Notes under the pieces: model-generated | What the model was told of the DNA's origin: nothing | Database searches by the model: none | The model's input: the letters and a program-made list of their open reading frames with translations, nothing else | Translations under genes and position numbers: made by a program | Part shown: positions 6,583-17,949 of the stretch, one piece after another | Numbering within the stretch: the first letter of the stretch is position 1 | How the letters are laid out: each line of letters opens with the position of its first letter | Source: Deltaproteobacteria bacterium | Lineage (GTDB): Bacteria > Desulfobacterota > GWC2-55-46 | Assembly (NCBI GenBank): GCA_020846435.1 | Contig: JADLDY010000038.1 | Location: 1 to 43,889 of the forward strand | DNA length: 43,889 bases | Reading direction: 5' to 3'

Positions 6583-9267
6583 ATGGGTGGTGTAGGTGCA
6601 ATCGTCGGCGTATTCCTGTTATTCTCCCTGGCTCTTTCGTGGGTGTCGGGAGACAAAGAGAAGATGCGTCTTGAAGATAAGATAAAGGAGAAGTCGACAG
6701 TCGAGCAGAAGCTCGAGGTCGATCTCACGAACGCCAAGGCGAAGGTGGCGAAGGAAACCGAGGCGTACAAGGAGCTCGAAGAAAAGCTCAAGGCCGAGCT
6801 GAACGAGAAGAAGAGGCTTGAGAGGGCTCTGGCTTTTGAAGAGAGGCAGAAGAGGATAGCCGAGAAAGAGGGCATGACCGCTTCTTCTGTTGATCTCGAC
6901 CAGGAGCGCGAGAAGATAAGGGCCGAGATAGAGTCCAAGACCAAACAGGAGATAGCCGACCTCGAAGCGAAGCTGGTCTCTGTTGAAGAGGCGAAGCTCC
7001 GGATCGAGACTGAGATGAAGCTCAAGGTGGAGGAAGAGGCCAGGAAAAGGGCGGAAGAAGCCTGGACCCAGGCCGAGCTCGCCAGGGTAAAGGCGCAGGA
7101 AGCGAACGCCAGGAGCCTCGAGCTTGAGAAAAAGCTCGCCGACCTCGAGAAGGCAGGCCTTTCCATGCACGCGTCATTAAAGGAGCAGGAGAGCGCCAGG
7201 GCCGCGGCCGAAGGAAAGCTCGCGGCCGAGACCGAAGCGAGGCAGGAGCTCGAAGCCAGGCTCATGGAGGCTGAGAAGTCGCTTGTCGCCGCGAGGTCTA
7301 CAATGGACAGCGTCAGGGAGGTAACTGATTCTCCGGTCGCGATAGCGGCCCCGTCCGAGACCTCAGCCGCCATGACCGAGGCCGCCGCGGCTAAAGCAGA
7401 GGCCGCCTCAGCCGCCCTCATCATAGCGGAGCTTGAAAGGTCGAGGGATGAATCGCGCAAGAAGGTAGCAGAGAGCGGGGAAGCCATAGCGACACTTGAA
7501 AAGGAGATAGCGCGGCTCAACAGCGAGCGTGACCTCATAAGGAATCAGACCGCCGAGAGCGCGACTGTCAGCGCTTCCATAAAGAGCGACCTTGACGCGG
7601 CAAAGGCCCGCGAAGAGGCCTTGCGTAAAGAGATAGAATCAAAGCCCATCATAATGAACCAGGAGTTCGCCGTTGACAGGGCCGCTGAAAGAGAGGAGCT
7701 CTCAAAGAGGGTGGCCGCTCTTGAAAGCCAGCTCACTGTCGCCGAAGAGTCCAGAAAGAAGCTCGAAGAGTCTTCCAGGTCCGAGCTCGCCGCTCTTACG
7801 GCGCGCACCGAGGAGCTCATGAGCAGGAACAGGACGCTCGAGGGCACACTTAAGGAGACACAGAGCGCTCTTGTGAGGGCCGAGTCGGCGAGCGACATGG
7901 CCCGCGACCTCATAACCAAGAACTCCGAGCTCGAGCAAAAGCTCAAGGAAGCAGGGCTCGTCAACCTCCAGGGCAAGGCCGCGAGCTATGTCGCGCAAAA
8001 GCTCATAGAGAAGAACACCGAGCTTGAGATGAGGCTCAAGCAGGCGGAGCTGGCCCTCGTGCAGTCCGAGTCTGCCAGAAACCAGGCGGAGAACGTCGCC
8101 ACGCAGAACAGGGAGCTCGTCTCCAGGCTCCGCGACGCCGAGGTCTCTCTGGCGAGGAACATGACGGCCGCCCCTCTCATAGAGACCCTGAGCCAGAGTA
8201 ACCTGGAGCTCGAGGAGAGGATAAAAGAGACGAACGAGGCCCTTGCCCAGGCGCAGGCCGCCAGATACATGATAGAGGAGCTCAACGCGAAGAACCTGGA
8301 GCTTGAAAAGAAGATGCTCGCCCAGTCCGCTGAAAAGTCAGACCCCAAGGCTCTTGAGGAGCTCAGGGCCGCCAGAGTGGAGCTCGACGAGAAGCTCAAA
8401 CAGGAGAGCAGGGTAAGGAACGCGCTTGAGGCGAGGCTGCGCGACGCAGAGATGGCCAAGACAGCGGGAGAAGCCACGATAAGGGAGATATCCACGGCAG
8501 GGGAGGCGACAAAGGCCAGGCTCGAGCAGGAGTCAGCGGCGAGGGCCGCGCTCGAATCCCAGCTCCAGGAAGCCGTGTCAGCCATGAAGGCCGGGGATGA
8601 CTCGATAGCGGCGATCGGGCGCGTCAGGAGCGAGATGGAGGCCAGGGTCGCCGAGGAGAGGGAGTCCAGGAGAGTGCTTGAGGCCAGGCTCCATGACGTA
8701 GAGGCTTCCGAAGGCGCGAGCAAGGCCGCTGTAAAGGAGCTTCAGGATACACTAAAGGACACCGAGGAGAAGCTCACTACCGAGACTAACGCGAGAAAGG
8801 AACTCGAGGCCGAGATAGCGAGGCTCAGCAAGGAGACCGATATCCTCAGGAGGGCCGGACTTGACGCCGTCGGCGTGATGGACCTCCAGGGCCAGTTCGC
8901 GACCCTCAAGATAAAGATAGCCGAAAAGCTGAGGAGCGGGGAGATAGCCCCGGAGGACGTAATAAAGTTCATGAAGGTCGACGATGTGCTCGGCTTCTAC
9001 ATAGTAAAGAAGGGGGACACCCTCTGGAAGATATCAAGGAAGGCCGAGGTCTACGGCAACTCCTACATGTGGCCGCTCCTTTACAGGTACAACCTCTCGA
9101 GGATGAAGAACCCGGACCGCATAGAGGTTGACGACATAATCATCGTGATAAAGGACGTCAGCCTCAGGGAGAGCAGGGACGCCGTACGCAAGGCAAGGAG
9201 CAGGGGCGACTGGCGCAAGTGGACAGACGGAGACCGCAGGAACTGGATAGAGACCTGGGTCAATTAA
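6583..9267 (+). CDS. Membrane-anchored long coiled-coil protein with C-terminal LysM domain
   Basis: I do not recognise a named gene. The 894-residue product starts with one membrane segment (about residues 2-20, GVGAIVGVFLLFSLALSW). A coiled coil of roughly 740 residues follows, very rich in Glu, Lys, Ala, Leu and Arg. It includes a block of repeats of the type LITKNSELEQKLKEA and LIEKNTELEMRLKQAELAL around residues 445-580. The end carries a LysM domain (YIVKKGDTLWKISRKAEVYG ... PLLYRYN ... IEVDDIIIVI), which in other proteins binds peptidoglycan or chitin-like GlcNAc polymers. The architecture suggests a protein fixed in the inner membrane that reaches across the periplasm to the cell wall. 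It has its own promoter and terminator. AAGAGGTGTAAAATG supplies the ribosome-binding site. Confidence 0.9.
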   Translation: MGGVGAIVGVFLLFSLALSWVSGDKEKMRLEDKIKEKSTVEQKLEVDLTNAKAKVAKETEAYKELEEKLKAELNEKKRLERALAFEERQKRIAEKEGMTASSVDLDQEREKIRAEIESKTKQEIADLEAKLVSVEEAKLRIETEMKLKVEEEARKRAEEAWTQAELARVKAQEANARSLELEKKLADLEKAGLSMHASLKEQESARAAAEGKLAAETEARQELEARLMEAEKSLVAARSTMDSVREVTDSPVAIAAPSETSAAMTEAAAAKAEAASAALIIAELERSRDESRKKVAESGEAIATLEKEIARLNSERDLIRNQTAESATVSASIKSDLDAAKAREEALRKEIESKPIIMNQEFAVDRAAEREELSKRVAALESQLTVAEESRKKLEESSRSELAALTARTEELMSRNRTLEGTLKETQSALVRAESASDMARDLITKNSELEQKLKEAGLVNLQGKAASYVAQKLIEKNTELEMRLKQAELALVQSESARNQAENVATQNRELVSRLRDAEVSLARNMTAAPLIETLSQSNLELEERIKETNEALAQAQAARYMIEELNAKNLELEKKMLAQSAEKSDPKALEELRAARVELDEKLKQESRVRNALEARLRDAEMAKTAGEATIREISTAGEATKARLEQESAARAALESQLQEAVSAMKAGDDSIAAIGRVRSEMEARVAEERESRRVLEARLHDVEASEGASKAAVKELQDTLKDTEEKLTTETNARKELEAEIARLSKETDILRRAGLDAVGVMDLQGQFATLKIKIAEKLRSGEIAPEDVIKFMKVDDVLGFYIVKKGDTLWKISRKAEVYGNSYMWPLLYRYNLSRMKNPDRIEVDDIIIVIKDVSLRESRDAVRKARSRGDWRKWTDGDRRNWIETWVN

Positions 9268-9284
9268 ATAAACCGGGACGCTGA

Positions 9285-9317
9285 AAACGGGGGGCGAAAA
9301 CCCCCCGTTTTTTTTTA
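9285..9317 (+). terminator. Intrinsic terminator after the LysM gene
   Basis: ACGGGGGG pairs with CCCCCCGT around a short CGAAAA loop and is followed by nine T residues. Confidence 0.92.
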
Positions 9318-9343: not shown

Positions 9344-9371
9344 TTGAATAAATGCGGCAACTCATTATAAT
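9344..9371 (+). promoter_or_regulatory. Sigma-70 promoter of the HEAT-GT2-YaiO-phosphatase operon
   Basis: TTGAAT (9344-9349) and TATAAT (9366-9371) with a 16-base spacer, just before GGAGGGC and the TTG start at 9396. It makes the next four genes a unit separate from the LysM gene. Confidence 0.72.
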
Positions 9372-9395
9372 AGGGCCTGCTCCGGAGGGCTTTTC

Positions 9396-10715
9396 TTGGC
9401 TTATATTCTTGTATATTCCATAATAACCGTTTTGTCGGTCCTTATCGCATCAACCCTTGCAGTCGTGATAGCGAGGCGTCTGTACATGGAGAGGATATAC
9501 CGCCGCCTCGACAGGGAGAGGGCAAGGTTTTCCGGCCTTCCGGCGGCCCTCGCCGCGCGCAGGGCCGTGGTGTATCTGAGCCCGTACAGGCACAGGCCGC
9601 TTTCCGCCGGCTGGGTAGCTGTCGAAGAGGGGCTTTTCAAGGCGTTCGACTCAGGCGGGGGACCGGAGGCCGCCAGGCTTTTCGACCAGCTTGGCTACGC
9701 AGACTATTACATGGAGACGATAAAGTCAGGCAACAGGTGGGAGCAGGCGATGGCGGCCGAGAGGCTCGGCCACATGAGGTGCAAGAGGGCCTTGCCCCTT
9801 ATCGTCGAGGCCTTCGAGAGCCCTAACACAGACTTGAGGCTCATGGCCATACACGCGGCCGGCCGCATGGGGGACTCGATGGTGCTGCCGGCGCTGGTGA
9901 AGATAATGAAGTCGGCTGTCCTCAGGAGCGAGGAGGTCTCGAAAAAGATCCTCGCCTCTTCCATAATCTCTTTCGGAGCGCTTGCGTCGAGGCCCCTTGT
10001 CGAAGAGCTCTCATGTCCGGACTGGCGCGTGAGGGCGGCCTGCCTCAACCTTCTGGGCGAGATTGGGGGAGCCGGGCTCGGGCCGCTCTTTCTTAAGCTG
10101 CTCGACGACCCTGAGCAGGACGTGCGGGCAAAGGCGGCAAGGGGGCTCGGCAGGATAAGGTGCGCCGTGGCGGCGGAAAAGCTTGAGGCCTGCCTTGATG
10201 ACCGCTACTGGGTCGTGAGGCTGCACGCCGCGAGGGCCCTCGGGCTCATTCGCGAGAAGAGGAGCGAGCCGGCCCTTGTCGCTAAACTTGTCGACAGAAA
10301 CTGGCAGGTAAGAAGGGCCGTCTCTGAAGCGCTCTCGAGGATCGGCGGGACAGCCTACATGGAGCTTTTGAAAGTGTTCATAGACTCGCCGGACCAGTAC
10401 GCGAGGGACCAGGCCCTTGACGAGCTCGCGAGAAGCGGTGTAGCCGCGGCGCTCCTTTCCATGCTGCCGAGGGGAGGGGCCCGCCATATCGTCCTCAAGG
10501 AGGTCCTTGCGACAGACGTCAACGGAGGGGCGAGGCCCGAGGTGCTCGTCGACATGCTTGTATTCCTTTCGTCCCTCGACGAGGAGACTCTTTCTCTCGC
10601 GTTGACAGCAATGCAGCTGACGATAGACGCGAGCGGCGTCGAAGGGATTGTTGCCTCCAGCGGGTCTATCATGGAGTTCGGCGTCAGGAACAGGGGGGAA
10701 GCCTGTGCTGAATAG
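9396..10715 (+). CDS. Membrane-anchored HEAT-repeat protein
   Basis: A 439-residue protein with one N-terminal membrane segment (AYILVYSIITVLSVLIAS, residues 2-19) followed by about seven or eight HEAT-type helical repeats. Examples are RWEQAMAAERLGHMRCKRAL, LRLMAIHAAGRMGDSMVL, WRVRAACLNLLGEIGGAG, VRAKAARGLGRIRCAVAA and WVVRLHAARALGLIREKR. Such repeats form curved protein-binding scaffolds; no catalytic motif is visible. Translation probably starts at TTG, with GGAGG seven bases before it and no ATG nearby. It is the first gene of the operon, 9 bp before the polysaccharide synthase. A role in assembling or regulating the synthase complex at the membrane is inferred from position only. Confidence 0.88.
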   Translation: MAYILVYSIITVLSVLIASTLAVVIARRLYMERIYRRLDRERARFSGLPAALAARRAVVYLSPYRHRPLSAGWVAVEEGLFKAFDSGGGPEAARLFDQLGYADYYMETIKSGNRWEQAMAAERLGHMRCKRALPLIVEAFESPNTDLRLMAIHAAGRMGDSMVLPALVKIMKSAVLRSEEVSKKILASSIISFGALASRPLVEELSCPDWRVRAACLNLLGEIGGAGLGPLFLKLLDDPEQDVRAKAARGLGRIRCAVAAEKLEACLDDRYWVVRLHAARALGLIREKRSEPALVAKLVDRNWQVRRAVSEALSRIGGTAYMELLKVFIDSPDQYARDQALDELARSGVAAALLSMLPRGGARHIVLKEVLATDVNGGARPEVLVDMLVFLSSLDEETLSLALTAMQLTIDASGVEGIVASSGSIMEFGVRNRGEACAE

Positions 10716-10724
10716 GCGGCTCGC

Positions 10725-12143
10725 ATGATCATATCGCTGATATTATGGTTCAATTACCTCGTGCTCGCCTATTACTTCGCGGCCAACGGGATCTACCTCG
10801 TCCTTCTCATCCTCGCTTCCGGGACGATATTGAGCCACCTTTCGAGGCTCGAGTACGCGAGGTACCAGGGGGCGATGCACGACTCTGTCGCCCCGCCTGT
10901 AAGCGTCATCGTCGCGGCCTACAACGAGGAGGCTAACATCATCGATTCGGTGAGGTCGCTCCTGAAGCTCGACTACCCGGACTTCGAGATAATAGTCGTG
11001 AACGACGGGTCGAATGACGGGACTCTCTCTAAGCTCATCGAAGGCTTCGGCCTCAAGAGGGCCAACGTCATATACAGGCAGGCGTTGAGGACCAGCCGCG
11101 TGCACGGCTTTTACCTGGGAGAGGCCGCCCCGAGGCTCGTAGTCGTAGACAAGGCCCATGCCGGCAAGGCCGATTCGTTGAACGTCGGCATAAATGTGTC
11201 GAGGGCCCCGTACTTCTGCTCGGTCGACGCTGACTCGGTGCTCGAGGAGAAGGCCCTGTTGCGCCTCATGCGGCCGATAATCGAAGCGCCTGATCTCGTC
11301 CACGCAACCGGAGGCATAGTGAGGCTCGTGAACGGGTCAAGCGTCGCCGACGGCAGGCTCGTCGACATAAGGCTCCCCAAGGACAGCCTCTCGCTCATTC
11401 AGGTCGTCGAGTACATAAGGAGCTTCCTTTTCGGCAGGGCGGGCCTGTCCGTTCTCAACTCGCTTCTCGTCATATCCGGGACCTTTTCGATGTTCCAGAA
11501 AAAGTCGGTCCTTGCCGCAGGCGGCTACAAGACCAACATGGTCACGGAGGACATGGAGCTTGTCGTGAGGCTCCACAAGCACCTGAGAGACCACAAGAGG
11601 AAGTACCGCATAACATTCGTGCCGGACCCCATCTGCTGGACAGAGGCGCCGAAAGACCTTGCCATGCTCAAAAAACAGAGGAGCAGGTGGCACACGGGGC
11701 TTGCCGCGTCGATATACATGTACAAGTCCATGCTGTTCAACTACCGTTACGGCAGGATAGGGTTTTTCGCGCTCCCGTACCAGCTCCTTGTCGAGCTCAT
11801 CGGCCCTGTCATAGAGGTCGCGGGCTACGTCGTTGTCACGGCCTCGTTCGCGTTCGGCATAGTCGACAGACACTTCTTCATGCTCTTCGTCGTCATGGCC
11901 ATACTGGTAGGCATCTTCTTTTCGATAGCCGCCGTTCTCCTCGAGGAGATATCTTACAGGCGCTACCCGAAGTTCAGGGACACCTTCAAGCTGCTCGCGT
12001 ACAGCGTGCTTGAGAACTTCGGCTACCGCCAGATGCTCTCTCTCTGGAGGACCCAGGCAGTGCTCAAGTTTCTGTTCTCGAGGAACCAGAAGTGGGAAGT
12101 GGTAAGAAAAAGGGGTTTTTCAAAGCCCGCGAAGGAAGCATGA
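10725..12143 (+). CDS. Processive GT2 polysaccharide synthase (PgaC/YaiP-like)
   Basis: A 472-residue inner-membrane glycosyltransferase of the hyaluronan / poly-GlcNAc / cellulose synthase class, expected to polymerise a nucleotide sugar and pass the chain through the membrane. One or two N-terminal membrane segments (residues 2-38) precede the GT-A domain. Four catalytic motifs are visible: Asp94 in VVNDGSNDG, DAD at 168-170, the TED motif ending at Asp276, and QRSRW at 318-322 (the Q/RXXRW motif of processive enzymes). Two or three membrane segments follow (about 345-410). Its start lies 9 bp after the HEAT gene, and its stop overlaps the start of the next gene as ATGA. No PgaD-like or PilZ partner is visible. 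The product sugar cannot be determined by eye. Confidence 0.92.
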   Translation: MIISLILWFNYLVLAYYFAANGIYLVLLILASGTILSHLSRLEYARYQGAMHDSVAPPVSVIVAAYNEEANIIDSVRSLLKLDYPDFEIIVVNDGSNDGTLSKLIEGFGLKRANVIYRQALRTSRVHGFYLGEAAPRLVVVDKAHAGKADSLNVGINVSRAPYFCSVDADSVLEEKALLRLMRPIIEAPDLVHATGGIVRLVNGSSVADGRLVDIRLPKDSLSLIQVVEYIRSFLFGRAGLSVLNSLLVISGTFSMFQKKSVLAAGGYKTNMVTEDMELVVRLHKHLRDHKRKYRITFVPDPICWTEAPKDLAMLKKQRSRWHTGLAASIYMYKSMLFNYRYGRIGFFALPYQLLVELIGPVIEVAGYVVVTASFAFGIVDRHFFMLFVVMAILVGIFFSIAAVLLEEISYRRYPKFRDTFKLLAYSVLENFGYRQMLSLWRTQAVLKFLFSRNQKWEVVRKRGFSKPAKEA

Positions 12144-13558
12144 CAATGAAGATGAAATGGATAAAAGCCCTTTGTCTCGCCGCCATCCTCTCGGGCGCGC
12201 CAGTGAATGTTTTTGGCGCACAGGCCGCGGAGCCCTCAGGCGGGAGCGGAGAGGCTACTCTCTCGATGGCGGACTCGCTCGCCAGGGCTGGAAAACTCGA
12301 CAGGGCGATAGCCATCATCGAAGAAGTCCTCGCCAGGGAGCCTGCCAATACGGACGGCCGCCTTCTTTACGCGAGGACGCTCTCATGGAAGGGCGAGTAT
12401 GAAAGGGCCATATCCGTCTACGAAGACGTTGTCAGGCAAAAGCCGGAGAACGCCGAGGCCCATGCCGGGTACGCGAGGGTGCTCTCGTGGAAAGGCGAGT
12501 ACAGCCGCTCGATCGAGGAGTACAGAAAAGCTCTCGCGATAGAGCCAGGGTCGATTGAGGCGAGGATGGGACTTGCGAGGACCCTGTGGTGGAAGGGGGA
12601 TGACAACGCGGCGTTGAATGAGCTCTCGACCATCCTCTCGATAGACCCGGCCAATGGCGATGCGCTCAGCCTCGAGCGAAGGCTCAGGGCTCTGAGAGGC
12701 CCACTCCTCAAGGCACTGTACTCGAATTCGTCAGACTCGGACACGAACAGGCTTGCAAGCTACCGCCTGTCGTTCTCTGATACGTTCGGGCTCCCTGGCC
12801 ACAGGTTCGAGGCGGGGTACAGACGCTTTGACGCCTCATCCGCCGGCAGGAGTGCTACGGCGCATTTCCTTGACCTGAAGGACTCGATAAGGCTTTCGGG
12901 CAAGTCAGTCCTCACGCCGAGGCTCTCCCTTGTTTCGCTTGATTCAGACTTGAGTAACACAGCCTATCTTGCCGGGGGTCTGAGCTTTTACGCGCCGGTC
13001 ATGAAGTCTGCCGGAGTGTCCCTCTCGTACAGCCGCTATCCGCTCGTCGACACTGTAACCCTCATCGAGAACAATATCAGGGTAAGTGAAGCGGCGGCCG
13101 CTCTGACCCATGATATGAGAAGGGCGACATTGAGCGCGTCGGCCGTGAGCGCTTCCTACTCCGACGGGAACTCGAGGTACGACCTCTCCGGAGGCATCAG
13201 TGTGAATGTGTTGAAGAGCCCCAACGTCGTCGCGGGCTTCGTCTCAGAATACAGGGATTTTTCCGAAAGGAAGGCGAACGGGTACTACAACCCGCCGCAC
13301 ATATTCTCGAACTCGGTCTATCTCGAGGTCTCGGACAGGTTCCGGCAGGATTTCCTGTACAGGGCAAAGGCAACTCTCGGCAACCAGAGCCGCGAGGGCA
13401 CATCTGATCTCGCCGGGTCTTTTCAGGCAGGGCTCGAATGGGAGGCGACGAGGGACCTCTCAGTAGAAGCTCTCTACAAGTATTCAAGGAGCGCGCTCGA
13501 GAGCGCCTCGGGCTTCAGCTTCGAGGAGTTCAGGGCGGGCGTAAACTATCTTTTTTGA
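12140..13558 (+). CDS. TPR and outer-membrane beta-barrel protein, YaiO-like
   Basis: A 472-residue secreted protein. A signal peptide (MTMKMKWIKALCLAAILSG, cleavage near VFGAQA) is followed by three to four TPR units. Two near-identical ones are RLLYARTLSWKGEYERAISV and AHAGYARVLSWKGEYSRSIE. The second half (from about residue 200) alternates polar and aromatic residues like a transmembrane beta barrel and ends EEFRAGVNYLF, with the C-terminal Phe expected for Bam-assembled proteins. TPR plus barrel is the layout of export proteins such as PgaA and of the YaiO family. I start at 12140 because CGAAGGAAGCATGA places an ATG on the upstream stop codon; the longer frame would overlap the synthase. 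The likely role is polysaccharide export through the outer membrane. Confidence 0.9.
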   Translation: MTMKMKWIKALCLAAILSGAPVNVFGAQAAEPSGGSGEATLSMADSLARAGKLDRAIAIIEEVLAREPANTDGRLLYARTLSWKGEYERAISVYEDVVRQKPENAEAHAGYARVLSWKGEYSRSIEEYRKALAIEPGSIEARMGLARTLWWKGDDNAALNELSTILSIDPANGDALSLERRLRALRGPLLKALYSNSSDSDTNRLASYRLSFSDTFGLPGHRFEAGYRRFDASSAGRSATAHFLDLKDSIRLSGKSVLTPRLSLVSLDSDLSNTAYLAGGLSFYAPVMKSAGVSLSYSRYPLVDTVTLIENNIRVSEAAAALTHDMRRATLSASAVSASYSDGNSRYDLSGGISVNVLKSPNVVAGFVSEYRDFSERKANGYYNPPHIFSNSVYLEVSDRFRQDFLYRAKATLGNQSREGTSDLAGSFQAGLEWEATRDLSVEALYKYSRSALESASGFSFEEFRAGVNYLF

Positions 13559-13566
13559 GGGGTTTC

Positions 13567-14043
13567 ATGAGCACTGAAAAGAAGCTTAGGTTGATAATGG
13601 CCGCATTTGTAATGCTTGCCGCCTACGGGGTATGGAATATATTCCAGCCTGACGTCTTTCCCATGAGCTTCGTGAGGGGTGAGGTAAGGGAGATAGCGCC
13701 CGGCGTGCTCGGCGGCCCATACCCGACCGAGGCCGAGTTGAGGCTTCTGGCAAGGAACGGGGTCACAGAAGTGATAAGCCTGATGGACCCTGAGAGCGTG
13801 GTCGAATCAAGCCTCGTTGAAGAGGAAAGAAAGCTTGTCGCCGGCAAGGGGCTCAAATTCAGGAACTTCCCGATGGATTTTAATGACATGAACTCGCCGG
13901 GGAGCGTAATTGGGCTTGAGAAGGCTTTGTCGAGGCTCTCTGAAAGGGGCTCTCTGAAGGTATACATCCACTGCTATCTCGGCCGCCACAGGGTCGGGCA
14001 GGTGGAGGCCGCGTTGAAAAAGGGGCAGGCGCAAAAGCCTTAG
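13567..14043 (+). CDS. Membrane-anchored dual-specificity / tyrosine phosphatase-like protein
   Basis: A 158-residue protein with one N-terminal membrane segment (LIMAAFVMLAAYGVWNIF) and a short phosphatase-like domain. Recognition rests on YIHCYLGRHRVG, which holds the CX5R catalytic loop (Cys136, Arg142), and on upstream GGPYPTEAELRLLARNGVTE, usual in dual-specificity phosphatases. The catalytic His-Cys pair is intact. A start inside the YaiO-like gene is possible, but ATG 13567 has GAGGGG upstream and begins just before the membrane segment. It ends the operon 8 bp after the barrel gene. Control of the polysaccharide system, or removal of phosphate from an intermediate, is an inference. 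Its last 4 bp overlap the convergent Roadblock gene. Confidence 0.85.
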   Translation: MSTEKKLRLIMAAFVMLAAYGVWNIFQPDVFPMSFVRGEVREIAPGVLGGPYPTEAELRLLARNGVTEVISLMDPESVVESSLVEEERKLVAGKGLKFRNFPMDFNDMNSPGSVIGLEKALSRLSERGSLKVYIHCYLGRHRVGQVEAALKKGQAQKP

Positions 14044-14393
14044 CCCATCTCCTCTTCTATCGATTCTATCGCCCTCAAAGCCTCAGGCAGGACTTTCTCC
14101 GAGGGGGCCTGCCTGTCGAGGGCGACTGTCAGGCAGTAGCCTTCCTTTATTGGCATGATGGCCAGTTTCGCCCTATCCGTGGATATGAAGATCGAAGTTA
14201 TGGTACGGCCGCGGATTAAGGCGGCTTCATTTGCCGCGTCGAGTATTATCTCGCAGTGCGCTCCCACGAGGGGCATGTCAAGGCCCTCAGAGGCCGACCA
14301 TGAGGCGACAATCTCGCCGTCCCTGTCTGTCATCGCCGCGCCTTGCGCGAGTGCCCTTTCACAGAGGCCTTTGAGAATGCCGGTAAAGTCCAT
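14040..14393 (-). CDS. Roadblock/LC7 domain protein
   Basis: A 117-residue single-domain protein with the Roadblock/LC7 pattern. An N-terminal helix is followed by AAMTDRDGEIVASW, then a long helix (MPLVGAHCEIILDAANEAALIRG), TITSIFISTDRAKLAIMPIK and YCLTVALDR. Roadblock proteins such as MglB form dimers and act as activators or scaffolds for small Ras-like GTPases. No MglA-like GTPase gene is in this window. It begins 13 bp after the smc stop and so is probably cotranscribed with smc. Its own 3' end overlaps the convergent phosphatase gene by 4 bp, leaving no space for a terminator. Confidence 0.82.
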   Translation of the reverse strand: MDFTGILKGLCERALAQGAAMTDRDGEIVASWSASEGLDMPLVGAHCEIILDAANEAALIRGRTITSIFISTDRAKLAIMPIKEGYCLTVALDRQAPSEKVLPEALRAIESIEEEMG

Positions 14394-14406
14394 GTGGCCG
14401 GGCCGG

Positions 14407-17400
14407 TTAGAATTTGAGGGTTATCATCTTGGAAACGCCAGGCTCCTGCATGGTGATTCCGTAGAGCGCGTCTGCCATCTCCATGGTCTTCTTGTTGTGG
14501 GTGATGAGCAGGAACTGGCTTATCTTCGACATGTCCCTGACGAACATGTTGAACCTGTCGATGTTCGCGTCGTCAAGCGGCGCGTCGACCTCATCGAGGA
14601 GGCAGAACGGGCTGGGCTTGATGAGGAATATGGCGAATATCAGGGCTGTCGCCGTAAGCGCCTTCTCTCCGCCGGAAAGGAGCGTGATGTTCTGGAGCCT
14701 CTTGCCCGGCGGCTGGGCGGCTATCTCGACCCCGGCCTCGAGTATGTCGGACTCTTCCGTGAGACGGAGCTCGGCCCTGCCGCCGCTGAAGAAGCGCGGG
14801 AAGGTCTCCTGGAACTTGGCGTTTATCTCGTCGAAGGTCGTCCTGAACTTCTCCCTCGTCGTCCTGTTTATCCTCTGTATGGCCGTGTGCAGGGCATCGA
14901 CGCTCTTAGTGAGGTCAGCCTGCTGGTCGAGGAGGAACTGGTGCCTTCTTTCGAGGTCGTTGTACTCTTCGAGGGCCGAGAGGCTCACTTCCCCGATGGC
15001 CGCTATCTTCTCTCTTAGCTCATCTCTGTTGCCTTCGAGCGTCTCTATGTCAGGGACCTCTTCGCCTTCGAGAGGCCTGTATTCCTGGAGGAAGGTGCCG
15101 TATTTTTCCTGCATGCGCTCGTTGAGCCCCTTTATGGCAAGCTCCATCTCGCGCATCTCGATGGTGAGCTCGCCTTTCAATTCCTGCGCCTCTGAATACC
15201 TGGTCTTGACCTCTTTAAGCTCGTGCTCGATGGTCTTTATCTGGCTGGCGAGGGCGTCGAGCGCTTCGAGCTTGGCGACCTCTTCTTTCTTGATGCCGTC
15301 TATCTGCGAGAGCAGGGCTTCGAGCCGTTCCTTTGTCGCCGCGGCATCAATTTCCTTCGAGGCGATCTCCTGCGTGGCGCGCTCTATCTCTGCCTTCTTC
15401 GTCTCTATCCTTCTGCCGGACTCCTCGATGGAGCGCTCCTTTGAGGAGACCTCCCTCTTCATCGATTCGAGTCGCTCCCTTGAGCTGGCGAGCTTTACCC
15501 TGGCTTCGGTGACGACCGCGGATATCTCCTCTTTCCTGCGGGTGAGGAGGCTCGCTTCTTCGGCTATGGCGGCGATCTTCGCGTCAATGCCCGCGAGCGA
15601 CCCTTCAAGCCCTTCCCTTTCCTGCGACAGGGCGGCCTTCTTGCCAGCGGCCTCATAAAGCTTCTTTTCAGCGTCGGATATCTCGTTCGTGAGAGAGTCC
15701 CTCGTGCGCCGGAGCCTGTCGGCCTCGTCTTCCTGCCTCTTCAGCTCGCTCGAGAGGTTGACCTTTTCTATCTCTGATTTGTGCAGCCTGTCGCGCAGGC
15801 CGTCGATGTTCGACTTTTCGGAGAGTATCTTCTCGTCGAGGGATTTGAGTTCCTGCTCAAGGCCGGAGATCTGCCGGGCAAGGGTTTCGGCGTTAGCCCT
15901 TGTCTTTTTTATCTCGCCCCTTCTCTGGAGTATGCCTGCCCCTGAGAGGGCCGACCCGCCGGTCATGACGCCCTGGCCGTCGATTATCTCGCCGTCAAGC
16001 GTGACAAAGGTGCGGTAGCCGCCGCTTTCCTTCCACGCGGAAAGCGCTGTCTCAAGGTTGTCAGCTATGAATACGTCGCCAAGGAGGCAGGTGACGATGG
16101 AGTCGTAGCCTTCTTTTATGCGGAGCTCGCCTGCGAGCTCCCTCACGCCGGGAAGCGAGCCGGAAAGGGCCGGGACCGGCGCGGCTGAAGGCCTCGCCTC
16201 GTTTACCGGTACAAAGCTCGCCCTTCCGGCGCCCTTTGATTTCAGGTACTCTATCGCGTCGACGCCTTCTTTGTGGCTCTCGACGAGCACGTACTGGAGC
16301 TTGTCGCTGAGGACTGCTTCGACAGCGCGCTCAAATCCGGGGTTGGTCTCTATGCAGTCGGCTATGAGGCCGAAGACGCCGGTCTTTTCCTGGCGCTGCA
16401 TTATGGCCTTTGCCCCGCCCTTGAGGCTCTCGAAGTTCTTTTCCATGCCTTCGAGGGTCGCGAGCATGGCCGAGGCCTTTGAATACTCGTCCTTTGCCTT
16501 TGATATCTCCCTTGTCTTCCCGGTCCTGTCCTGCTCGAGCGCTTCGAGGCCCAGCCTTACGCCGGAAAGCTCGGCCTGGAGTGATTCCCTGCCGTCTACT
16601 GCCGCGGTGATCCTCTCCCTCAACGCCTTTATGGGCTCTTCCTTCGACGCCAGCGTGACTGAGGCGGCTTCTATCTCGGTCTTTGCCTTTGCCTCGGCCG
16701 CGCGCAGGAGTTCCTCGTCGCGCAGGCAGTTGCTGATGGCGTTCCTTATGTCCGAGAACCTGCTGGATATCTTGAACGACTCGGTCTTCAAGGCCCTTTG
16801 GGCCTCTTCTTTGGAGCGGAGCTCGAGCGATACAGTTTCAAGCGACTTTGAGTTCTCGCTCAGTTTCGTGGAATCGGTCTCTATCAGGGAGGCGAGCTCT
16901 GTAAGGCTCGCCCGGAGCGCCTCTATCTCCCTTGACGCGCCCTCGCGGCCGCCCTGTATCTCTTCAATCTCGAGGCTCAAGCGTTCCTGGGCGCGCCTCA
17001 GTTCTTCCGTCCTCATCGAGGCCAGGGCACGGGCCTGCTCTTCGCTCTGTATGGAGCGCTCGCACTCGAAGACGCGCTCCCTTATGTTCTTGTATTCGCC
17101 TTCGACGCCGAGGTGCTCGACCCTCATCTCCTCGGCCTGCTCTTCTCTCGCGGCTATAAGCGTGCCTGAGGCGACCTCTTCGTCCTTTACGGCCTCAAGC
17201 CTCTTTGCCACGTTCGAGAGGGCTTCCCTCATCTTCGTGAACTCGAGGGAGGAGAGCGTGAGCTCGAGGCCCTTGAGCTCTTCTCTTAAAGCCTTGTACC
17301 TCTCGGCCTTTTTGGCCTGGCGGTTGAGCGAGTTGAGCTGCCTTTTTACTTCGCTTATTATGTCGTTGACGCGGGTGAGATTCTCCCTCGTTGACTCCAG

Positions 17401-17949
17401 CCTTCTGAGGGCGGCGTCCTTCTTGTGCTTGAATTTGTTTATCCCGGCAGCCTCTTCGAAGATGGCGCGGCGCTCTTCGGCCTTGGCGTTAATCAGCCAG
17501 CCGACCTGCCCCTGTTCGATTATGGAGTAGGCCCTGGTGCCGATACCCGTGTCAGTGAAGAGGTCTACGATGTCCTTGAGGCGGGACTGGACCTTGTTTA
17601 TGTAGTATTCGCTCTCGCCCGACCTGTACAGGCGCCTTGATATCTCTATCTCGGAGAAGTTGGCGAACCTCGCTGAGGCAAGCCCGTCCTCGTTCGAAAA
17701 TGTCAGTACGACCTCGGCCATGCCAAGGGGCTTTCTGCTCTCGGAGCCGTTGAAGATGATGTCCTCCATGTGCTTTCCGCGAAGGTGTCTCGCGTTCTGC
17801 TCTCCAAGGACCCACCTGATGGCGTCGACTATGTTGGATTTCCCGCAGCCGTTAGGCCCTATTATGCCTGATGTGCCGGCCGGGAAAGTAAGAGTGACCT
17901 TATCGACAAACGACTTGAAGCCGTGTATCGAGATCTTTTTTATCTTCAT
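14407..17949 (-). CDS. smc: Chromosome segregation protein SMC
   Basis: The 1180-residue ATPase core of bacterial condensin, which organises and segregates the chromosome. The N-terminal half of the head holds IIGPNGCGKSN (Walker A, residues 31-39) and the Q-loop region WVLGEQNARHLRG. Two long coiled-coil arms flank a hinge domain at roughly residues 520-670 (GVFGLIADCIE to GQGVMTGGSALSGAG). The C-terminal head half holds the ABC signature LLSGGEKALTATAL and Walker B PFCLLDEVDAPLDDANI. Length and domain order are normal. No scpA or scpB is nearby; the Roadblock gene follows instead. The ATG at 17949 has CAGGGGC upstream and a promoter about 29 bp away. Confidence 0.98.
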   Translation of the reverse strand: MKIKKISIHGFKSFVDKVTLTFPAGTSGIIGPNGCGKSNIVDAIRWVLGEQNARHLRGKHMEDIIFNGSESRKPLGMAEVVLTFSNEDGLASARFANFSEIEISRRLYRSGESEYYINKVQSRLKDIVDLFTDTGIGTRAYSIIEQGQVGWLINAKAEERRAIFEEAAGINKFKHKKDAALRRLESTRENLTRVNDIISEVKRQLNSLNRQAKKAERYKALREELKGLELTLSSLEFTKMREALSNVAKRLEAVKDEEVASGTLIAAREEQAEEMRVEHLGVEGEYKNIRERVFECERSIQSEEQARALASMRTEELRRAQERLSLEIEEIQGGREGASREIEALRASLTELASLIETDSTKLSENSKSLETVSLELRSKEEAQRALKTESFKISSRFSDIRNAISNCLRDEELLRAAEAKAKTEIEAASVTLASKEEPIKALRERITAAVDGRESLQAELSGVRLGLEALEQDRTGKTREISKAKDEYSKASAMLATLEGMEKNFESLKGGAKAIMQRQEKTGVFGLIADCIETNPGFERAVEAVLSDKLQYVLVESHKEGVDAIEYLKSKGAGRASFVPVNEARPSAAPVPALSGSLPGVRELAGELRIKEGYDSIVTCLLGDVFIADNLETALSAWKESGGYRTFVTLDGEIIDGQGVMTGGSALSGAGILQRRGEIKKTRANAETLARQISGLEQELKSLDEKILSEKSNIDGLRDRLHKSEIEKVNLSSELKRQEDEADRLRRTRDSLTNEISDAEKKLYEAAGKKAALSQEREGLEGSLAGIDAKIAAIAEEASLLTRRKEEISAVVTEARVKLASSRERLESMKREVSSKERSIEESGRRIETKKAEIERATQEIASKEIDAAATKERLEALLSQIDGIKKEEVAKLEALDALASQIKTIEHELKEVKTRYSEAQELKGELTIEMREMELAIKGLNERMQEKYGTFLQEYRPLEGEEVPDIETLEGNRDELREKIAAIGEVSLSALEEYNDLERRHQFLLDQQADLTKSVDALHTAIQRINRTTREKFRTTFDEINAKFQETFPRFFSGGRAELRLTEESDILEAGVEIAAQPPGKRLQNITLLSGGEKALTATALIFAIFLIKPSPFCLLDEVDAPLDDANIDRFNMFVRDMSKISQFLLITHNKKTMEMADALYGITMQEPGVSKMITLKF

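Follow-up and report, generated by a model that had tools for sequence, protein, structure and literature searches.

What do four close-packed genes in a deltaproteobacterial contig (JADLDY010000038.1, GTDB lineage GWC2-55-46) make together? They occupy positions 9396–14043 of the 43,889-nucleotide stretch that was analysed (the window) and encode, in order, a HEAT-repeat protein, a glycosyltransferase of family 2 (GT2), a protein with tetratricopeptide repeats (TPR) and a predicted β-barrel, and a CX5R phosphatase-like protein. We consider it likely that they form a synthase-dependent exopolysaccharide (EPS) system, in which the HEAT protein is the constant cytosolic, membrane-anchored partner of the synthase. 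This reading is based on gene content, on conserved adjacency and fusion of HEAT and GT2, on a barrel that occurs only in diderms, on predicted folds and on catalytic motifs. An earlier note on this DNA had described four tightly spaced genes for a membrane HEAT protein, a GT2 with all catalytic motifs, a TPR plus β-barrel export protein and a membrane-anchored CX5R phosphatase, and had proposed an EPS synthase/exporter operon. The positions and gaps were confirmed, each of these protein descriptions was borne out as detailed below, and the proposal is supported by gene content and by conservation across phyla.

A HEAT protein beside the synthase

The synthase (10725–12143, plus strand, 472 aa) matches Pfam PF13641 (3e-20) and PF00535, carries the motifs NDGS, DAD, TED and QxxRW, and has transmembrane (TM) segments on its N- and C-terminal sides. 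Residues D94, D168, D170, D276, Q318, R319, R321 and W322 are invariant across 12 diverse GT2 homologs. Thus, the gene product shows a membership feature of the synthase-dependent EPS class, a membrane GT2 with catalytic Asp residues and QxxRW. The HEAT-repeat protein (9396–10715, plus strand, TTG start, 439 aa) matches Pfam HEAT_2 at 4e-37 and has a single N-terminal TM segment (residues 8–26) followed by a positive flank. This one helix is predicted to anchor the protein in the membrane, and the repeats are predicted to be cytosolic. Charge bias places the HEAT domain in the cytosol in 93 of the 100 orthologs having such a bias, and this is consistent with natural HEAT-GT2 fusions, where two TM segments separate HEAT from the GT domain.

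The earlier note had proposed a search for this neighbourhood across phyla, and the neighbourhood proved to be conserved. A search with the GT2 alignment gave 80 named loci, and the loci that could be scored numbered 113 once those from plasmids and from the phylum were added; since the GT2 alone was used for the search, the association with HEAT was unselected. HEAT was immediately upstream of GT2 or fused to it in 110 of the 113 loci, which cover about 15 phyla (Bacillota, 12/12; archaea, 4/4; diderms, 94/97), and in the three exceptions (L083, L135 and L143) one gene intervenes. On the other hand, HEAT was found only once among 891 genes at other neighbouring positions and was absent from all 20 control GT2 loci (paralogs and E. 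coli pga, nfr, bcs and yai), which rules out that the adjacency is due to chance or is a general trait of GT2 genes. In the tree, 112 HEAT-type GT2s fall on one side of a branch (Shimodaira–Hasegawa-like approximate likelihood ratio test, 98), against BcsA, PgaC, YaiP and the paralogs on the other, though the outgroup branches are very long. We define the family as the GT2s of this clade that have a HEAT gene next to them or fused to them, and the window synthase belongs to it. Four natural fusions were found, two in Spirochaetota (L109 and L132) and two in Bacillota (L118 and L125). They form a single clade, so that repeated independent fusion is ruled out.

The system had also been called possibly undescribed, and apparently it is. 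We found no description of the HEAT-GT2 pair in the open-access literature (subscription papers and preprints were outside the search), and the word is therefore provisional. Two candidates for a prior description, a Rubrivivax EmbRS paper and a lipocone paper, were examined and are not relevant.

Predicted exporter and phosphatase-like protein

The third gene (12140–13558, plus strand, 472 aa) overlaps the GT2 gene by ATGA, and its product begins with a signal/TM segment and matches Pfam TPR_19 at 4e-27. The AlphaFold2 model (mean pLDDT confidence score 86.8) has five TPR hairpins and 16 strands (residues 189–471), and the best Foldseek matches in the PDB are BcsC (3.9e-19), PgaA (2.6e-13), BcsC again and PelB (8.2e-11). 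The protein is thus predicted to be an outer-membrane exporter with a TPR domain and a 16-stranded barrel, a further membership feature of the EPS class. The barrel had been called YaiO-like, but this does not hold: it matches neither TIGR04390 nor PF19413, the hhalign probability is 0.5%, and the nearest folds are those of BcsC, PgaA and PelB. Genuine YaiO barrels take the exporter position beside HEAT-GT2 in Legionella, Mesorhizobium, Emticicia and a Flavobacterium metagenome-assembled genome (MAG). The TPR/barrel gene is present in 69 of 97 diderm loci and in none of 16 monoderm and archaeal loci, as expected of an outer-membrane part. In some relatives of the same family (L044, L048, L049 and L050), the barrel proteins are only 24–27% identical to that of the window while their synthases are about 70% identical, suggesting either a much quicker evolution of the exporter than of the synthase or an exchange of the exporter.

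This steady pairing bears on whether the GT2 makes a polymer at all. It could instead add single sugars to a lipid or an envelope polymer, the barrel carrying other cargo, as GT2 families contain many monofunctional transferases and the polymer here is predicted from genes. We regard this as quite improbable, because the protein shows every element of the synthase signature, flanked on either side by TM segments, because its partner is an exporter of BcsC/PgaA/PelB or YaiO type in diderms only, and because deacetylase and glycosidase-like genes are among the neighbours of the family.

The fourth gene (13567–14043, plus strand, 158 aa) encodes the phosphatase-like protein. Its Pfam matches are weak and all under the cut-off. 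However, the loop HCYLGRHRV is invariant in 12 orthologs, and the structural model (pLDDT 87.8) is nearest to AtPFA-DSP1, DUF442 and SIW14, with TpbA matching too, so that both the HCX5R P-loop and the fold of CX5R dual-specificity/PFA-DSP phosphatases are recognizable. PTPMT1, a lipid phosphatase, is also among the profile matches. The protein is predicted to be membrane-anchored, and the positive N-flank of its TM segment in most orthologs suggests that the catalytic domain is probably in the periplasm.

The phosphatase is an accessory restricted to a few lineages. It was found (E ≤ 1e-10) in 3 of 297 sampled genomes of the phylum, and in only 14 of the HEAT-GT2 loci examined. It could be a passenger without any role in the polymer pathway, as its absence from several same-order relatives and from most distant loci may suggest. 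Such a passenger is distinctly unlikely, since all three matches in the phylum sample are on the synthase contig and adjoin the synthase, and homologs lie directly downstream of the barrel or GT2 gene in Geobacter and a Flavobacterium MAG. The homolog in the latter (L133, 10582–11754) has several TM segments and two domains, and its second P-loop is degenerate (HAFFSDNS).

Neighbouring genes and the proposed polymer

Genes near the pair in other genomes give hints about the product. Same-phylum relatives (L055 and L139–L145) have the order HEAT, GT2, a protein with TPR and a GH72-like part, a polysaccharide deacetylase (PF01522) and a TPR barrel. The GH72-like family is present in 27 loci (alignment A2), and its link to GH72, made by one member at E 5e-4, is only suggestive. 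It is a large secreted TIM-barrel-like family without a Pfam model of its own (e.g., L058, 3850–5970), Paenibacillus has two copies, and a search of solved structures with it gave nothing useful. A second TIM-barrel-like family, in 12 loci, matches PDB 10yv ('Putative GH97 from Cellulomonas fimi') at E 1e-25. The haloarchaeal pair adjoins GlmS and a sugar nucleotidyltransferase, and most members have no deacetylase nearby. In the deacetylase-bearing relatives, N-acetylhexosamine is our leading guess for the sugar. The polymer probably differs between lineages, as the neighbours suggest: in Legionella, a nucleotide-sugar dehydrogenase and epimerases are found in place of a deacetylase.

Some neighbours raise the idea of a phosphate-bearing polymer, either akin to teichoic acid or phospho-modified. 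The phosphatase would then edit this polymer, or the lipid that donates to it, and would have no part in signalling. In Sphingobacterium (L098, 7887–11327), the HEAT-partnered GT2 is in a very long open reading frame (ORF), fused to a C-terminal domain like Sulfatase/lipoteichoic acid (LTA) synthase, which is possibly a polymer synthase and a phospho-transferase in one chain. The Emticicia operon contains an LTA synthase family gene, and the predicted periplasmic side of the phosphatase and its PTPMT1 match would also fit. Nevertheless, the window operon has no such transferase gene, and the phosphatase occurs in just those 14 loci; we give this idea little credence. Judged by length and score only, the HEAT-partnered GT2 is likewise in one very long ORF in L099, L102, L105, L107 and L121.

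The preferred reading, a synthase-dependent EPS system, can be worded as a mechanism. At the membrane's inner face, GT2 would build a chain from a nucleotide sugar and thread it across. The HEAT protein would dock on the GT domain and assemble or gate the synthase, filling the place of the PilZ domains, PgaD or PelD of known systems. In many lineages it probably relays two-component signals; receiver-domain proteins are near 59 loci by clustering, and Pfam confirmed this on representatives. In the periplasm, the chain would be led by the TPR domain of the third protein, whose 16-stranded barrel would then let it cross the outer membrane. The phosphatase, probably on the periplasmic side, most likely tunes the output in a TpbA-like role, or dephosphorylates the polymer or a lipid. 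Here we infer the processivity, the contact and gating between HEAT protein and synthase, the topology, the two-component link, any role given to the phosphatase and also, as the earlier note had put it, that the four genes would be sufficient to make and export a polymer. A more general idea, that HEAT-GT2 is a pan-prokaryotic core polysaccharide synthase of bacteria and archaea, with HEAT as a control subunit driven by phospho-receivers rather than by cyclic di-GMP (c-di-GMP) and with export, trimming and modifying parts chosen by envelope type, is tentative, and we lean against it for now.

Several points weigh against the preferred EPS reading and the HEAT-synthase partnership in it. The polymer and the activity are predicted from genes, contact between HEAT and synthase is presumed, topology was derived from hydropathy and charge alone, and the four fusions represent one event, not several. 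QxxRW-like motifs also occur in non-processive GT2s. Deacetylase, glycosidase and receiver genes are all missing from the window operon. Moreover, D104, the candidate general acid of the phosphatase, varies among the 12 orthologs. Another residue could serve, but as no general acid is conserved at this position, the protein may bind instead of hydrolysing, and we only infer catalysis.

The transcription unit and known systems

The four genes are co-directional with spacings of 9 bp, −4 bp (the ATGA overlap) and 8 bp, and by sequence they appear to be a single transcription unit. A strong predicted intrinsic terminator (9283–9312, plus strand; 12-pair stem, then a T-rich tail) sets the operon apart from the LysM/coiled-coil gene upstream. 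It is followed by a predicted sigma-70-like promoter, TTGAAT-16-TATAAT (9344–9371, plus strand), which matches the consensus at 10 of 12 positions and is the best of the region, and by a Shine-Dalgarno-like GGAGGG (9384–9389, plus strand), 6 nt ahead of the TTG start. The upstream gene (6583–9267) encodes a coiled-coil protein of 894 residues that starts with a TM segment and ends in a LysM domain, and it is kept beside the operon site in relatives. Downstream of the phosphatase gene is a convergent Roadblock/LC7 gene (14040–14393), which adjoins SMC (14040–17949 for both, minus strand); this pair is conserved in the family.

Among the 297 phylum genomes, 17 have the synthase (E ≤ 1e-90). It is 57–83% identical in 16 loci from the same family and order, of which 11 have the full set of four genes together. 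In a sister species (G001, same genus), the LysM and Roadblock genes are just 418 bp apart. This remnant (L153, 3277–3696) contains decayed parts of the barrel C-terminus and the last 57 phosphatase residues, including HCCLGRHRVG. The common ancestor therefore had the operon, G001 lost it by deletion, and it is dispensable.

Among known systems, the window system works like Pga and Bcs, yet it lacks the features tested for membership in the poly-N-acetylglucosamine (PNAG) systems PgaABCD and IcaADBC. A divergent PNAG (pga/ica) system, with poly-N-acetylglucosamine as product and HEAT as a lineage-specific helper, is unlikely, though less so than the other rivals. PgaC_IcaA (TIGR03937) is the best NCBIfam model of the synthase, PgaA is among the top folds for the TPR and 16-strand exporter, same-phylum relatives have deacetylase and glycosidase-like genes, and GlmS and a nucleotidyltransferase accompany the haloarchaeal pair. 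However, the score of 143 bits is far under the equivalog cut-off of 422, and E. coli PgaC is outside the HEAT-GT2 group, albeit on long branches. The window has a HEAT protein in place of PgaD, and a phosphatase; no PgaD ORF was found between or beside the four genes in the ORF list, Pfam or NCBIfam. The fused PgaB-type deacetylase is also absent from the operon (in L055 and L139–L145 the PF01522 gene is separate). Further, most members lack a nearby deacetylase, and Legionella has the dehydrogenase and epimerases instead.

A c-di-GMP-binding regulatory or co-polymerase subunit is usual, not universal, in the EPS class. Pfam and NCBIfam scans of the operon found neither PilZ nor GGDEF, while the host genome has 13 PilZ matches and four PF01522 matches over the cut-off outside the operon. 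The earlier note was thus right that a deacetylase, a PilZ/c-di-GMP receptor and PgaD are missing, but not that HEAT and phosphatase substitute for the deacetylase, since the same-phylum relatives have HEAT together with a deacetylase and the GH72-like protein.

Cellulose synthesis by BcsA/BcsC shares the fold of the exporter, for which BcsC heads the PDB matches, and the logic of synthase plus exporter, and BcsG-like phospho-modification may parallel the GT2-sulfatase fusion in Bacteroidota. In contrast to Bcs, the window has no BcsB, and its synthase is much shorter and without a PilZ domain. E. coli NfrA-NfrB, of the phage N4 receptor polysaccharide, also combines a GT2 synthase, having a cytosolic regulatory part, with an outer-membrane partner and secretes an uncharacterised EPS (PMC8669469); NfrB has the c-di-GMP domain MshEN, whereas the window system has a separate HEAT protein. 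The E. coli yaiO-yaiX-yaiP locus likewise holds a GT2 and an outer-membrane barrel, and YaiO-type barrels are beside HEAT-GT2 in several phyla. The likeness to yaiP-yaiO that had been drawn nevertheless fails: YaiP is only 24% identical and outside the HEAT-GT2 group, and is rejected as an ortholog, no HEAT gene is near yaiOP, and the sequence of the window barrel is not that of a YaiO. TpbA, which controls Pel polysaccharide in Pseudomonas aeruginosa (PMC2691606), shares the CX5R phosphatase fold, but PFA-DSP and DUF442 folds are nearer, and the window protein differs in its TM anchor and operon location.

Finally, a survey in 2020 named cellulose, acetylated cellulose, PNAG, alginate and Pel as the five exopolysaccharides that are synthase-dependent and did not mention HEAT (PMC7112194). 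Should HEAT-GT2 prove to be a polymer synthase, the pair would be a further class beyond these five, in about 15 phyla and both prokaryotic domains, with a control subunit unlike the known c-di-GMP parts and a ready target for assays in harmless cultured hosts.

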